A stretch of 35,092 bases of DNA from Alphaproteobacteria bacterium (lineage in GTDB: Bacteria; Pseudomonadota; Alphaproteobacteria; Rickettsiales; JABCZZ01), in assembly GCA_013288985.1 (NCBI GenBank), contig JABDAT010000015.1, forward strand, positions 1 to 35,092, read 5' to 3'. Position numbers and translations under genes: made by a program. This document shows, one piece after another, positions 17,176-34,442 of the stretch (the first letter of the stretch is position 1; each line of letters begins with the position of its first letter). The notes beneath the pieces were generated by a model. It did no database searches, was not told the DNA's origin, and worked only from the letters and a program-made list of their open reading frames with translations.

Positions 17176-17967
17176 ATGTCCGAAGCTGATAAGCCCGTCT
17201 TTGTCGATGAAATGCCTGATTTTCAGGATGCTTTGCAGAAAGTTACGGCGCTCACGCAAAATCCCGCTGCATTTGAAAAAATAGTGCACGAGCTTGAAAT
17301 TACGGGTGAACTCAAAGCCATGCAGGCGGCACAGGCGCAGTTGCAGCCTCAGATAGAGGCAATCAATGCTGAAGGGCAAAAATTAAATGCACGGCCCGCG
17401 GAGATTGAACAGAATATCCAACAGAAAGCCATACTTTGGAGAAGCATAGCGGGAGGAATATCGGCATTTGCAGGCGGTATTGCCGCCTATTTTGCTCAAA
17501 AAAAATGGGCAACAAAAGGTGGTATTATTGCAGCCATTACAACAACGCTCGTTGCAGGCATGGCGTTTTTATTCGGCGTCAATAGCTCATTGGAATCCGA
17601 GAAGCAAAAAGCTTCCCAGGCTTTGCAAAATGATGCACAGGCACTCCAACAAAAAGAACAGCAGCTGATGAGTCAATTTGCCGCCATTGAGGAGCCATTC
17701 CTGAAATCGATGGCGACGCGCATGCTGTCGGAACAAAAAACCATCGTCACTGACGGTAATGAAATAAAATTAGTGTCCACCGCAAAAGAGCAAAATTCGC
17801 AGGATTTTGCCAAGACATTGGCCCATACTCCAACCGATGCGCCAGTCGTGGCTGAACCGCCATCTGCAACGGAGCGCTATAATCTTAAACCCCCTGCGTC
17901 CACGCATCTGTCAGGCGCCGAACATTCCAAAATCGCTGCGAATGCTGCAGCTGTAGTGGGTGGATAA
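17176..17967 (+). CDS. Hypothetical protein: coiled coil, membrane hairpin, coiled coil
   Basis: I do not recognise this 263-residue protein. It starts with an acidic stretch. About residues 50-85 form a Q/A/E-rich helix (repeated AQAQLQPQIEAI-type heptads). Two hydrophobic, glycine-rich segments follow (about 93-110, AGGISAFAGGIAAYF, and 116-137, GGIIAAITTTLVAGMAFLF), separated by a basic loop QKKWATK. A second Q-rich helix (about 141-175) comes next, and the tail is Pro/Ala-rich. There is no signal peptide and no enzymatic motif. The pattern is a membrane hairpin with both ends in the same compartment. The ATG has no Shine-Dalgarno site. It is inserted between serA and serC on the opposite strand and is probably a later arrival. 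Confidence 0.65.
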   Translation: MSEADKPVFVDEMPDFQDALQKVTALTQNPAAFEKIVHELEITGELKAMQAAQAQLQPQIEAINAEGQKLNARPAEIEQNIQQKAILWRSIAGGISAFAGGIAAYFAQKKWATKGGIIAAITTTLVAGMAFLFGVNSSLESEKQKASQALQNDAQALQQKEQQLMSQFAAIEEPFLKSMATRMLSEQKTIVTDGNEIKLVSTAKEQNSQDFAKTLAHTPTDAPVVAEPPSATERYNLKPPASTHLSGAEHSKIAANAAAVVGG

Positions 17968-19315: not shown

Positions 19316-20560
19316 ATGAACTCAGCCTCAGAAAAAATTATACATGTAGTGGATGCGTTGCTTCCTCACATTTTTATCAAGGATGAAAAGAATGAAAAAG
19401 CTATTCATGCGCCGGAGCGTAATGCAGCTATCGTTCTATTGGAATCTTACCCAACCCTTATTGAATCCGATGATAAAGAAGCCTACTTGCATTCGTTGGG
19501 CCATTTAAGCTCTGCCAATCTGGCTTTGGTTTTACAAAAGATAAATGTGTTCTTTTATGCGTATCCTGATTTACTGTCTCCAGAGACATTAGATGCGCTT
19601 ATTCATATTACCAATAGATCCAATTCCACATTAAGTGACGGCATGGAATCTTTAAAGGAACTCTTACAAGAAGTTCCTGCGCTGCAATCAGCAGAATATA
19701 TGAATTACCTGGCATATATCAGTGAAGGAGTTGGGAAACCTCTTGATGAGAACGTTGCGTTTGTTTCCCAAGCATTCAATGCATTAAGAAAAGTTTTTCA
19801 GGGCGATACAGAAAAAACACATCCCCGTGCTATTTTGCAGTCTTTTTTAAGCATGCTTGGGACGCAAGAAGGAGATTTGGGTTACGAGTTAGAATTTAAT
19901 GAAGACGATAATCATGAAGTGCGCTGCGGCCCTTTCAGTCATCCCGATAAAATAATGGCATCCTTGCGCTGTGCACAAACGCTCACAGAAATAAGTGATG
20001 TCAGAAGCTCATTACATTTAAATTTTGGCCTAACCAAAGAGCAGCTGCAAAATATTATGAAAAATGAAAAAACATATAAAGCAATTGCGCGTAAAGTAGC
20101 TTACCTGGCCAATTCTGCCGACCGCAACCTTTATCTGGAAAATAATTTTGGTGATAAATACAGGGCAATCGAGCTGCATGGAAGCGTTGACAACGATGAT
20201 ACAGATAACACTTTAAGACGGCTTGAATGCAGAGAATTCTGCATCGATAAAGGTGCGGATTTTACAATACTGCGCCCCTTTATCGATGCTATGCGCATAG
20301 CAATCAATGATCCTGAAAAAGCGCAGGAGCTAAACCAATCATTAAATGTAATATTTAAAGAAAATCATTTAAAGACACTCACCAAGAAATTTGCCGATGA
20401 GACTGAAAGACTTGAATGGAAAGCCGACTTTGAAACCCGCCAGATTCAGTATCGCGGTGAGGCAAGAGAATGTCTGGAACATTTTGCAATTATGCATGGC
20501 AAATCACGTACTAGTTCTGCACAAAGAAATAGAGATCAGGACGAGACTGAACGTTTCTAA
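19316..20560 (+). CDS. Orphan protein with motifs resembling the amidoligase/GCS (carboxylate-amine ligase) fold
   Basis: No family is certain for this 414-residue protein. The first 180 residues look helical and unrelated to anything I know. The middle carries, in order, YELEF (Glu191, Glu193), SSLHLNFG (His234), DKYRAIELH (Arg283) and TLRRLECREF (Glu304, Arg306). The glutamate-cysteine-ligase and amidoligase families have E-x-E, then H-x-H/H-x-N, then R-Y-x-A-x-N-L, then T-x-E-x-R with similar spacing, so an ATP-dependent amide-bond-forming fold is a reasonable inference. The C-terminal 100 residues are again helical and charged. Codon use is AT-rich (a sampled 60 bp near the start is under 40% GC), unlike neighbours. 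There is no Shine-Dalgarno site; a TATAAC box ends 9 bp before the ATG, which fits a leaderless message. The stop overlaps the converging hydrolase gene by 4 bp. Confidence 0.55.
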   Translation: MNSASEKIIHVVDALLPHIFIKDEKNEKAIHAPERNAAIVLLESYPTLIESDDKEAYLHSLGHLSSANLALVLQKINVFFYAYPDLLSPETLDALIHITNRSNSTLSDGMESLKELLQEVPALQSAEYMNYLAYISEGVGKPLDENVAFVSQAFNALRKVFQGDTEKTHPRAILQSFLSMLGTQEGDLGYELEFNEDDNHEVRCGPFSHPDKIMASLRCAQTLTEISDVRSSLHLNFGLTKEQLQNIMKNEKTYKAIARKVAYLANSADRNLYLENNFGDKYRAIELHGSVDNDDTDNTLRRLECREFCIDKGADFTILRPFIDAMRIAINDPEKAQELNQSLNVIFKENHLKTLTKKFADETERLEWKADFETRQIQYRGEARECLEHFAIMHGKSRTSSAQRNRDQDETERF

Positions 20561-21312
20561 CCTCTTCCTGAAATATCAAGCATCTTGCCCACAATGCGCA
20601 GTATCTTCTCAATATCGGCAGGTTCCGATAACCGGTGATCGCCGTTTTCAACAAGGATGGTTTTTACATCCTGCGAGGCGAGTTTCTCATTGATAGAAAA
20701 TGACACTTCCCACGGCACATCCTCATCTTTCATGCCGTGCAGCAATCGCACCGGACAATTCACAGGGATTTCCTGGTGCAGCAGCAGATGCTCGCGCGCT
20801 TCTTCAATAAACTGGCGCGTAATCGCATAAGGCTCGCCAAAATCCGACGGCACCATAACCTTGCCTTTGGTTTGCAGCTCTTTTTGCTGTTTAGGCGTAA
20901 GCTTTTCCCATAACAGCGTTTCGGTAAAATCGGGAGCCGCTGCAATGCCCACAATTCCCGCCACACGCCGCGGCTTGGCGATGGCCAGCAGCAGGGCAAG
21001 CCAGCCGCCCATGGAAGAGCCCACAAGAATCTGCGGGCCTTCGGTCAGCTTGGTAAGCACCTGCAGCGCATCGTCTCTCCACCTTCCCAGCGTACAATCC
21101 TCAAAAGCCCTACTTGATTGCCCGTGTCCTTCATAGTCAAAGCGCACGAATGCATGGCTGCGTTCTTTGCAGAAAGCCTCCAGCGCCATGGCCTTCACGC
21201 CTGTCATATCGGAGCGAAACCCGCCCAGGAAGATTATTCCCGGCGTTTTACCTTCGGTTTTATGGTAGGCAATTTTGTCGCTTCCTGATTTTAAATACGA
21301 ACTATTCGTCAT
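20557..21312 (-). CDS. Alpha/beta hydrolase
   Basis: A 251-residue serine hydrolase. The oxyanion region is IIFLGGFRSDMTG. GSSMG holds the nucleophile Ser100, HGMKDEDVP holds the likely Asp196, and ENGDHRLSE holds the catalytic His226. Layout and motifs are close to the ABHD10-like alphaproteobacterial esterases (FDYEGHGQS follows the first strands). The frame extends upstream to 21369, but those extra 19 residues are encoded by a repeat-rich intergenic stretch and precede no family match, so I use the ATG at 21312. The gene converges on the amidoligase-like gene with a 4-bp overlap and diverges from the GT4 gene. Substrate is unknown, probably an ester or thioester. Confidence 0.85.
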   Translation of the reverse strand: MTNSSYLKSGSDKIAYHKTEGKTPGIIFLGGFRSDMTGVKAMALEAFCKERSHAFVRFDYEGHGQSSRAFEDCTLGRWRDDALQVLTKLTEGPQILVGSSMGGWLALLLAIAKPRRVAGIVGIAAAPDFTETLLWEKLTPKQQKELQTKGKVMVPSDFGEPYAITRQFIEEAREHLLLHQEIPVNCPVRLLHGMKDEDVPWEVSFSINEKLASQDVKTILVENGDHRLSEPADIEKILRIVGKMLDISGRG

Positions 21313-21324
21313 AATAATAGTGGC

Positions 21325-21392
21325 AAGTGGTAAGTTATAAGTGCTAAGTAGTAAAAAATTATTTATCACCTATTGCTTGACTCTTACCACTT
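21325..21392. repeat. 10-bp inverted repeat in the divergent gap between hydrolase and GT4 genes
   Basis: AAGTGGTAAG (21325-21334) is exactly repeated in inverted form as CTTACCACTT (21383-21392), 48 bp apart. Partial further copies flank both arms (AAGTGCTAAG, CTTACCACC). The stretch also contains the spacer for both divergent starts, so it could be an operator pair or a degenerate repeat. Confidence 0.45.
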
Positions 21393-24099: not shown

Positions 24100-24807
24100 T
24101 CAGCCTAGCGACCAGCTGCTGGATTTGCCGGAAGCAATTGTATACTTGGATGTAAATGTATCGCTTACATTTAGTGAGGTTTTTGGATCAGCAGGGCTTT
24201 GATACTGAATAATGCTTTCGTTCAGTTTCTTCCGAATTGCCGCCAGTGTGGCAACATCTGCTTTTAATATGCTAAAAGTATCTGACGGTATATATTGCAG
24301 TCCCTGTTCATCTTCCTGACCCTTGATATTCTTCCGTGGTTGATACGCACCTTTTTTCTCTAGCGAATCTAAAGTGCTTTTTAATCCGATATCATAAAGA
24401 AAACTAACTGCATTCGTAGTAAGCAAAAGGGTTTGATCAGAATAGTTGTATTTTTTGCGATTATTTAACTCTATACTCAACTGCGAGGTGGCACCCGTTA
24501 TACCCTCATCCATATATTTCAAAGCAGTATTTAAATCCTGCACAACCTTACCAGTAGCATGCCCCTTCACAGCATTGTCGATAACGGCTTGCTGTTCCTG
24601 TAGACTGTTTTGCACTGCTTCCAGCTTTTTAATATTTTCATTTATATCATTGTCTCTAAGAGTGCTAATTTCTGCCGTTACCTGAGCAGGTGCATTACTT
24701 ACAGCGGGCACAGCATTTCGCACCGTGGGATGGGAAGGCGCGCATCCCGCCAATGAAGTGCCAGCCAATAAAGCTAACGCTGTTGCTTTCTTATGTGATT
24801 GTGCCAT
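24100..24807 (-). CDS. Hypothetical lipoprotein
   Basis: A 235-residue protein with a lipoprotein signal peptide: basic start, hydrophobic stretch, then LAGC with Cys22 as the lipidation site. The mature part starts with a Pro/Ala-rich linker, then a Q/N/E-rich helical section (about 45-85) that may form a coiled coil. The rest has no motif I recognise. Ser/Gly-rich residues close the protein. AAGGGG about seven bases upstream supports the ATG. Codon use is AT-rich relative to bcp and cobB. The gene is flanked by converging bcp and by the sirtuin gene upstream on the same strand. Function is unknown; attachment to a membrane is the only safe inference. Confidence 0.75.
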   Translation of the reverse strand: MAQSHKKATALALLAGTSLAGCAPSHPTVRNAVPAVSNAPAQVTAEISTLRDNDINENIKKLEAVQNSLQEQQAVIDNAVKGHATGKVVQDLNTALKYMDEGITGATSQLSIELNNRKKYNYSDQTLLLTTNAVSFLYDIGLKSTLDSLEKKGAYQPRKNIKGQEDEQGLQYIPSDTFSILKADVATLAAIRKKLNESIIQYQSPADPKTSLNVSDTFTSKYTIASGKSSSWSLG

Positions 24808-32621: not shown

Positions 32622-34193
32622 CTATGCAGCACGGGCTTTCTTGCGAACAAGCCTTAAAGGTTGAGCTGCTGCCATTGCAAACGCATTCACGGCCTGCGCC
32701 ACATGCTCAACCTGCGCGCGGGTCATATGGGGACCTATGGGCAGGCTTAGCTCCGTAGCAGCCAGATGCTCTGCATTGGGATAGTGCGCCCCATTAACCT
32801 GCAGTGACGAAAACGCCTTCTGATTGCCTGGGGTAACCGGATAATGCACCAGTGACTGAACATCCTGAGCCTTTAAATGGGCTTGCAATGCATCCCTGTC
32901 AGCGCATAGCACGGGGAAAATATGCCAGGCCGAAACACAATTCTCATCGATGCTGGGCAACAGAATATCGGGATGATTGATATGTTCGAGATAATATTCC
33001 GCTATCTTCTGGCGCTCCGTATTCCATGCATCCAGCTGCGGCAATTTTACTTTGAGGAATGCGGCCTGTAATTCATCCAGACGGCTGTTAGTGCCCTGCA
33101 AATCGTCATGGATATATTTTACCGAAGAGCCATAATTGCGCAAGCTGCGTAGTTTTTTAGCGAGTTTGGCATCCTGCGTGGTAATCGCGCCGCCATCGCC
33201 AAATGCGCCAAGGTTTTTACCCGGATAGAAACTGAACCCGGCAGCGTCGCCCAATGTGCCCACGCGCTCCTCTTTGTATAAAGCGCCATGCGCCTGCGCC
33301 GCATCTTCGAGCACTTTGAGAGAGTGTTTTTTAGCCAACGCCATAATCGGGTCCATATCAGAGGGCTGGCCGTACAGATGCACCGGCATAATCGCTTTAG
33401 TGCGCGAAGTAATCGCCGCTTCAATACGGGCCGGATCAATATTATAGGTGTTCTCATTTAAATCGACCGGCACAGGCGTCGCCCCCACCGCAGTCACGGC
33501 AAGCCAGGTCGCAACAAAAGTGTGGGCGGGCACAATCACTTCATCACCCGGTCCGATATCCCATGCGCGCAGGCAAAGGGTCAACGCATCAAGGCCGTTG
33601 CCCACCCCTATAGCGTGCCTTGCGCCGCAATAGCGCGCAAAGGCCTGCTCAAAACTCTCGAGCTCAGGGCCCATAATATATTGGCCAGCCTCCCCGACGC
33701 GCGTAAACGCCTGCTGCATCTGGGGCGCAAGCGTTCGGTACGTCGATACAACATCTAGGAACGGCACCGTTACTTTGGGCTTTTCCTGTTCCTGGCGCCA
33801 GACAAGAAAATCATCATAATCGCGGATATAATCATCTTCATCATAAAGCTCTGAAGCGAGCACCAGGCATACGGCGCCCGAGGTAAAATTATCGAGCAGC
33901 CGCCAATATCCCGGCGGCACCAGCAGACCGCGATTGGCGCGGTTCATCGAATAGTGATAGGTTTCCTTGCCGTCTTTAAGGGTAAGGTCAAAACTGCCGG
34001 CCAGCGGAATGATAAGCTGTTTAAGATTTTTATGCGCATGCGCTCCGCGATCTTCACCGCCTGGCACATCGTAAAGATAATAAATTCTTTTGATGGGAAA
34101 AGGAACATTCACATGTTCTTCAATAAAGGAAAGATTGCCGCGCACATCGGCTACTTTCGGAATATCTATAATGCATGGCTTGGTGGAATTCAT
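32622..34193 (-). CDS. Fused nucleotide-sugar 3,4-ketoisomerase and DegT/DnrJ-type aminotransferase
   Basis: A 523-residue fusion of two enzymes that act in succession on dTDP-4-keto-6-deoxyglucose. Residues 1-134 form a cupin ketoisomerase (FdtA/QdtA/WxcM type): [23 protein letters not shown], the catalytic HAH at 52-54 and [13 protein letters not shown]. About 143-515 form a sugar aminotransferase (FdtB/QdtB type): VGNGLDAL, Asp297 (LEDAAQAHG) and PLP-binding Lys326 ([10 protein letters not shown]). Together they would give a dTDP-3-amino-3,6-dideoxyhexose for surface glycan. The frame runs to 34298, but ATG 34193 (or 34202) fits the family N-terminus. rmlA/rmlB and the acyltransferase are not in the window. 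It diverges from the ABC transporter gene. Confidence 0.9.
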
Positions 34194-34442
34194 AAAGAAC
34201 ATCGTGTGAAGGTTATAAATACGAGCCTTTGTAAACGCACGCCTATTTAGGCCAGGAACATACATGTTTTTACCCGTTCGTGCAAGGCATGAGTACATAG
34301 CGCCGCCAATAATTAAGAATTTGATTTTCTTGTGTATTATATTGATTACGCCCTAAACCTATACCTATAAAAAACCAATATGATTTGATTGACGGGCGCT
34401 TGCCGCCATCCTATGACTGAGCCTCATTTAAAGGAAAATCCG
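34194..34442. other. Divergent intergenic region between the sugar fusion gene and the ABC transporter gene
   Basis: The stretch holds the upstream in-frame extension of the fusion gene (34194-34298) and AT-rich sequence likely to contain both divergent promoters. AAGGA at 34431-34435 serves the transporter gene. I see no RNA gene, no clear -35/-10 pair and no repeat. Confidence 0.4.

Follow-up and report, generated by a model that had tools for sequence, protein, structure and literature searches.

The question raised by this locus is what the AT-rich gene of P0001, a protein of no recognized family, encodes, and in particular whether a set of short motifs in its sequence marks it as a carboxylate-amine ligase. 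The gene lies in a 35,092-nucleotide stretch of DNA, the whole of which is referred to here as the window; its features are collected in Table 1. On the evidence of its motifs and a modeled core, we favor, at a probability of roughly 0.55, the reading that in P0001 helical ends flank a divergent, minimal core of the carboxylate-amine ligase kind, which may be active.

Table 1. Features of the P0001 gene and protein (window coordinates)
Feature	Residues	Coordinates	Strand	Description
P0001 gene		19316..20560	+	414 aa; ATG start, TAA stop
N-terminal region	1-185	19316..19870	+	predicted all-helical, low confidence, without relatives
GYELE	189-193	19880..19894	+	GhExE signature on core strand 1, with E191 and E193 as proposed Mg/ATP ligands
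HEVRCGP	200-206	19913..19933	+	strand with E201; weak
SLHLNFG	232-238	20009..20029	+	H234-x-N236, corresponding to [HD]x[NH] on core strand 4
KYRAIELHGS	281-290	20156..20185	+	strand bearing R283, the proposed arginine of core strand 5
RLECREF	302-308	20219..20239	+	E304-x-R306, Ex[RK] motif of core strand 6
Helix after strand 6	317-331	20264..20308	+	predicted
C-terminal tail	336-414	20321..20557	+	hydrophilic, helical

The open reading frame is a real gene, since 414 codons would stay open at its own base composition with a chance of only about 4e-13, and each of the other five frames of the region contains 17-40 stops. Its coordinates and open frame were exactly as originally predicted, and it is indeed AT-rich: GC is 0.398 and GC3 0.349, versus about 0.50 and 0.55 in most neighbors, the lowest GC among the window ORFs checked, and the gene was probably acquired from elsewhere. 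Its stop codon overlaps that of a convergent alpha/beta hydrolase gene (20557-21369, minus strand). In G003, a complete genome from the same family, serC directly adjoins serA and a different contig carries the hydrolase; thus, the P0001 gene stands outside any conserved neighborhood. Within the coding sequence, directly after LECREF, there is an inverted repeat (20241-20289) of two 17-nt arms, 16/17 complementary with 13 bp perfect, predicted to fold as RNA into a hairpin at -25 kcal/mol (z -6.6); it is the sole close, non-overlapping inverted repeat of that kind in the 35-kb window, and may reflect a regulatory structure, the insertion of a palindrome or chance.

Elsewhere in the window, a gene at 17176-17967 (plus strand) encodes an unrecognized 263-residue protein with a possible coiled coil and two hydrophobic stretches. 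It is located between serA and serC, on the opposite strand to both, and these two genes are neighbors in the complete genome of a relative (in L047, 99 bp separate them); the weak PADLOC match of its product to LeoBC (E 5e-6) is probably caused by low-complexity helices. A second AT-rich orphan (24100-24807, minus strand; GC3 0.36) encodes 235 residues with a lipoprotein-like N-terminus, and a single ORF at 32622-34298 (minus strand) fuses an FdtA/WxcM-like sugar isomerase domain to a DegT/DnrJ/EryC1 aminotransferase.

P0001 is a true singleton, and its description as an orphan held in every library tried. No match above noise was found among Pfam, NCBIfam, PHROGs, PADLOC and PDB sequences, nor did any family match at relaxed thresholds, the Pfam matches to RNR_N and HRDC (E 0.04-0.16) being noise. 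Neither the records of phages and plasmids nor the viral and genome contigs searched contained a relative, and the approximately 1,100 whole genomes, searched as order-level (344), class-level (385, with the core only) and phylum-level (398) sets, returned chance matches only. Genome and viral contigs also yielded no homolog to queries with the entire protein, with parts of it, or with motif-degenerate bait alignments, whose rows are synthetic and served as search patterns only. Weak matches in related genomes looked like chance after inspection; by eye, they resembled an MgtE-like transporter (L002), GMP synthase (L003), NusA (L041), a pyruvate dehydrogenase subunit (L038), Lon (L036), an NHL/thioredoxin-like protein (L042), an OmpA-like protein (L070) and a DNA polymerase (L069). 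No ortholog was found that could show the motif residues to be conserved, which counts against the ligase reading. The failure of every homolog search, together with the negative hhalign and Foldseek results presented below, favors an alternative that we consider possible, although at less than even odds, namely, that P0001 is an unrelated ORFan, an alpha/beta protein of unrecognized fold acquired from a mobile element, in which the motif-like peptides are coincidental.

Evidence on coincidence comes from the motifs themselves. In the carboxylate-amine/ammonia ligase superfamily, the core has six strands in the order 231465, with helices after strands 3 and 6; strand 1 carries GhExE (Ex[EH]), strand 4 carries [HD]x[NH], strand 5 an arginine, with another in the preceding loop, and strand 6 Ex[RK]x2D (PMC2588565). 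The motif positions of the original prediction (YELEF 190-194, LHLNFG 233-238, KYRAIEL 281-287, LECREF 303-308) and its catalytic candidates (E191, E193, H234, R283, E304, R306) were all exact, and GhExE, HxN, R and ExR indeed follow the superfamily order. G189-Y190-E191-L192-E193 conforms to GhExE and falls on a predicted strand (190-194), H234-L-N236 conforms to [HD]x[NH] on another (232-236), and R283 is on a third (282-290), with R270 or R259 as candidates for the second arginine before it. On strand 6, E304-C-R306 is present and C309 occupies the place of the aspartate, which is likewise missing from the Amidoligase_2 members aligned. E201 of HEVRCGP could be aligned by eye, weakly, to the strand-3 acidic motif of GAT-linked amidoligases (EIVTPP).

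The ordered signature (GhExE...[HDQ]x[NH]...R...Ex[RK]) occurred in 2.2% of P0001 shuffles, and in 0.9% when the histidine was required; with about 30 proteins per window and many possible families, a frequency of 1-2% is what a coincidental resemblance in an ORFan could produce. Against such coincidence stand the motif profiles, built for four motifs from seven real amidoligases. With four blocks, 23 of 20,000 shuffles attained the P0001 score (z=3.8, p ~0.001), and with five, 98 of 20,000 did so, although these p-values are not clean, since the blocks and spacing limits were chosen with knowledge of P0001, and the score is for the same reason a strong suggestion rather than proof. As controls, 18 PF12224 members of the GAT type, all genuine and none used for the profiles, scored z 1.3-6.7 (median ~3.2), a range that includes P0001, whereas 23 other window proteins reached 1.8 at most. 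Overall, the motif match appears moderately beyond chance, and the score, which resembles that of distant true members, is strongly suggestive. When long blocks were scored whole, P0001 showed no signal, because the tails following the motifs do not match.

AlphaFold2 was run without an alignment, which makes it a weak predictor here. The full-length model had a pLDDT of 45, at which a fold search is meaningless; the core-only model (178-345) reached a pLDDT of 64 and a pTM of 0.63, and only the best of its five models was passable. This core has strands at 190-194, 200-204, 232-236, 271-277, 282-290 and 302-309, and helices at 210-225 and 320-331, in agreement with the helices that follow strands 3 and 6 in the published fold. 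Every motif lies on a strand, in the published order, which again speaks against an unrelated ORFan. At the level of secondary structure, the core is thus mixed alpha/beta, with its motifs on strands rather than scattered over an all-helical protein, and the extra helical ends of the original prediction were also predicted by the model, the N-terminal one at low confidence. It is to be noted that, although six strands and both helices were predicted, two strands precede the first helix versus three in the superfamily: strand 1 and the helix are separated by a single strand (200-204, which contains E201), and an additional strand (271-277) precedes strand 5. Foldseek against PDB and BFVD returned no significant match, and no GCS or GS structure was among the 50 best of either model, so that the suggested structural comparison yielded no link; this negative is weak, since Amidoligase_2 profiles found no convincing solved relative in the PDB, and only very remote folds could be reached.

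The strand count is paralleled by the spacing of the motifs, which had been described as approximately that of the superfamily. This was borne out for two segments, H to R/K (47 residues versus 54-116 in members, 54-55 in the phage type) and R/K to E (23 versus 12-34, 16 in the phage type), but not for ExE to H, which measures 43 residues versus 79-144 and is about 36 shorter than in any compared member. The length deficit is therefore mainly in one segment. In the phage-type L066, the extra stretch comprises, by eye, a helix and strand 2 (KVHVKDDGSL), and it appears from sequence and model that P0001 has lost edge strand 2, its preceding helix and its acidic residue. In the 231465 sheet, strand 2 is an edge strand beside strand 3, which is beside strand 1; deletion of strand 2 and the preceding helix would leave strands 1 and 3 as a tight antiparallel hairpin, which the predicted strands 190-194 and 200-204 fit. 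A fuller proposal is doubtful: P0001 would be the first minimal carboxylate-amine ligase to lack edge strand 2, its strands 1 and 3 being joined in a hairpin, and would remain catalytic, as the product of a lineage-specific gene in which flanking helical domains select the substrate, a protein or peptide. The same shortened segment, with the apparent loss of an acidic residue, the strong divergence and the patchy singleton distribution, would also suit a degenerate amidoligase that descends from the superfamily but has exchanged catalysis for a binding or scaffold role; we regard this as improbable, since none of the named catalytic residues (E, E, H, N, R, E, R) is missing, which is unexpected if catalysis was lost long ago.

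Profile tests did not place P0001 in a family. The core had no hmmscan match to Amidoligase_2 (PF12224; curated cut-off 22 bits) even at E 10, nor was one found in a six-frame genome search, and membership by profile is thus not supported. GCS2 (PF04107), also proposed originally, gave no profile match either, the only weak match of the own-genome search lying elsewhere. In hhalign, amidoligase profiles gave P0001 a probability of 0.1-0.3%, and the anticipated profile-profile link to Amidoligase_2 was not found. Left-out phage-type and long members scored 93-99% in the same test, and genuine GAT-type members only 0.24-4.5%, a range at or below which P0001 falls; hhalign is therefore not decisive at this distance.

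Nonetheless, the divergent-ligase reading retains the superfamily signature, a score like that of distant members and a mixed alpha/beta core, set against the lack of any link by sequence, profile or fold search and one missing strand. We infer its fold, activity and deletion scenario as follows. The core (~186-335) would lie between the helical ends; E191 and E193 of GhExE, with E201, would hold Mg-ATP, H234 and N236 would bind a metal and the phosphorylated intermediate, R283 and R306 would hold the negative charge, and E304 the metal. A carboxylate would be phosphorylated with ATP and then attacked by an amine, forming an amide bond. The neighbors suggest no substrate, since no glutamine amidotransferase-like, cyclotransferase or precursor-peptide gene was recognized adjoining P0001. 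Two VirB4-type ATPases in its genome (G000:C10:41044-41652 and G000:C6:28674-29285) mean that P0001 may be exported, and relatives also carry them (two in G003, one each in G001 and G002). With the singleton status, atypical GC and hydrophilic C-terminal tail, they fit an AT-rich, lineage-specific type IV secreted effector that would be delivered into another cell, with or without a ligase core and compatible with the other readings; this is unlikely, as no effector family matches P0001. If the ligase fold holds, P0001 shows how small a glutamine-synthetase-fold ligase core can become with its catalytic residues kept, and that profile searches miss such members; a small profile made from the other types hardly picks up even genuine GAT-type members. 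If true, it also adds a predicted peptide- or amide-forming activity to a bacterium with type IV secretion genes.

Among known systems, GCS2/YbdK (PF04107) shares GhExE and the superfamily motif order with P0001 (PMC2588565), but is absent from its profile and best fold matches. The Pup ligase PafA likewise carries GhExE in its strand 1 and [HQ]x[NH] in its strand 4 (PMC2588565), whereas the family libraries gave no sequence relation and no Pup or proteasome genes were recognized in the window. The GAT-linked Amidoligase_2 proteins of the same order (L012-L018) differ in having 225-255 residues from ExE to the strand-6 motif, and at least one copy (L018) adjoins a class I glutamine amidotransferase-like gene, a neighbor that P0001 lacks; they nevertheless share with it H-x-N on strand 4, R-A-[LI]-[DE] on strand 5 and E-[IV] before the helix. 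The genome of the phage-type forms L065 and L066 (G929:C114, another family) has at least three Amidoligase_2 genes within ~5 kb, beside other unrecognized ORFs, in what looks like a mobile-element or peptide-modification cluster. The same-order L020, L021 and L024 are Amidoligase_2 proteins of 504-631 residues with unrecognized N-terminal extensions of ~200 residues, L021 and L024 being paralogs within one genome. Compared with the phage-type and long Amidoligase_2 forms, P0001 has no profile match, a shorter distance from ExE to ExR (113 residues versus 150-233), HxN in place of HxH, no G-T after ExR, and no helix and strand 2 segment (D-x-S). These forms (L065, L066, L020, L025) have, however, the same ordered ExE, HxH/N, R/K-Y and ExR as P0001, and the same-order L020, L021 and L024 and phage-type L066 also share its long extension before the core.
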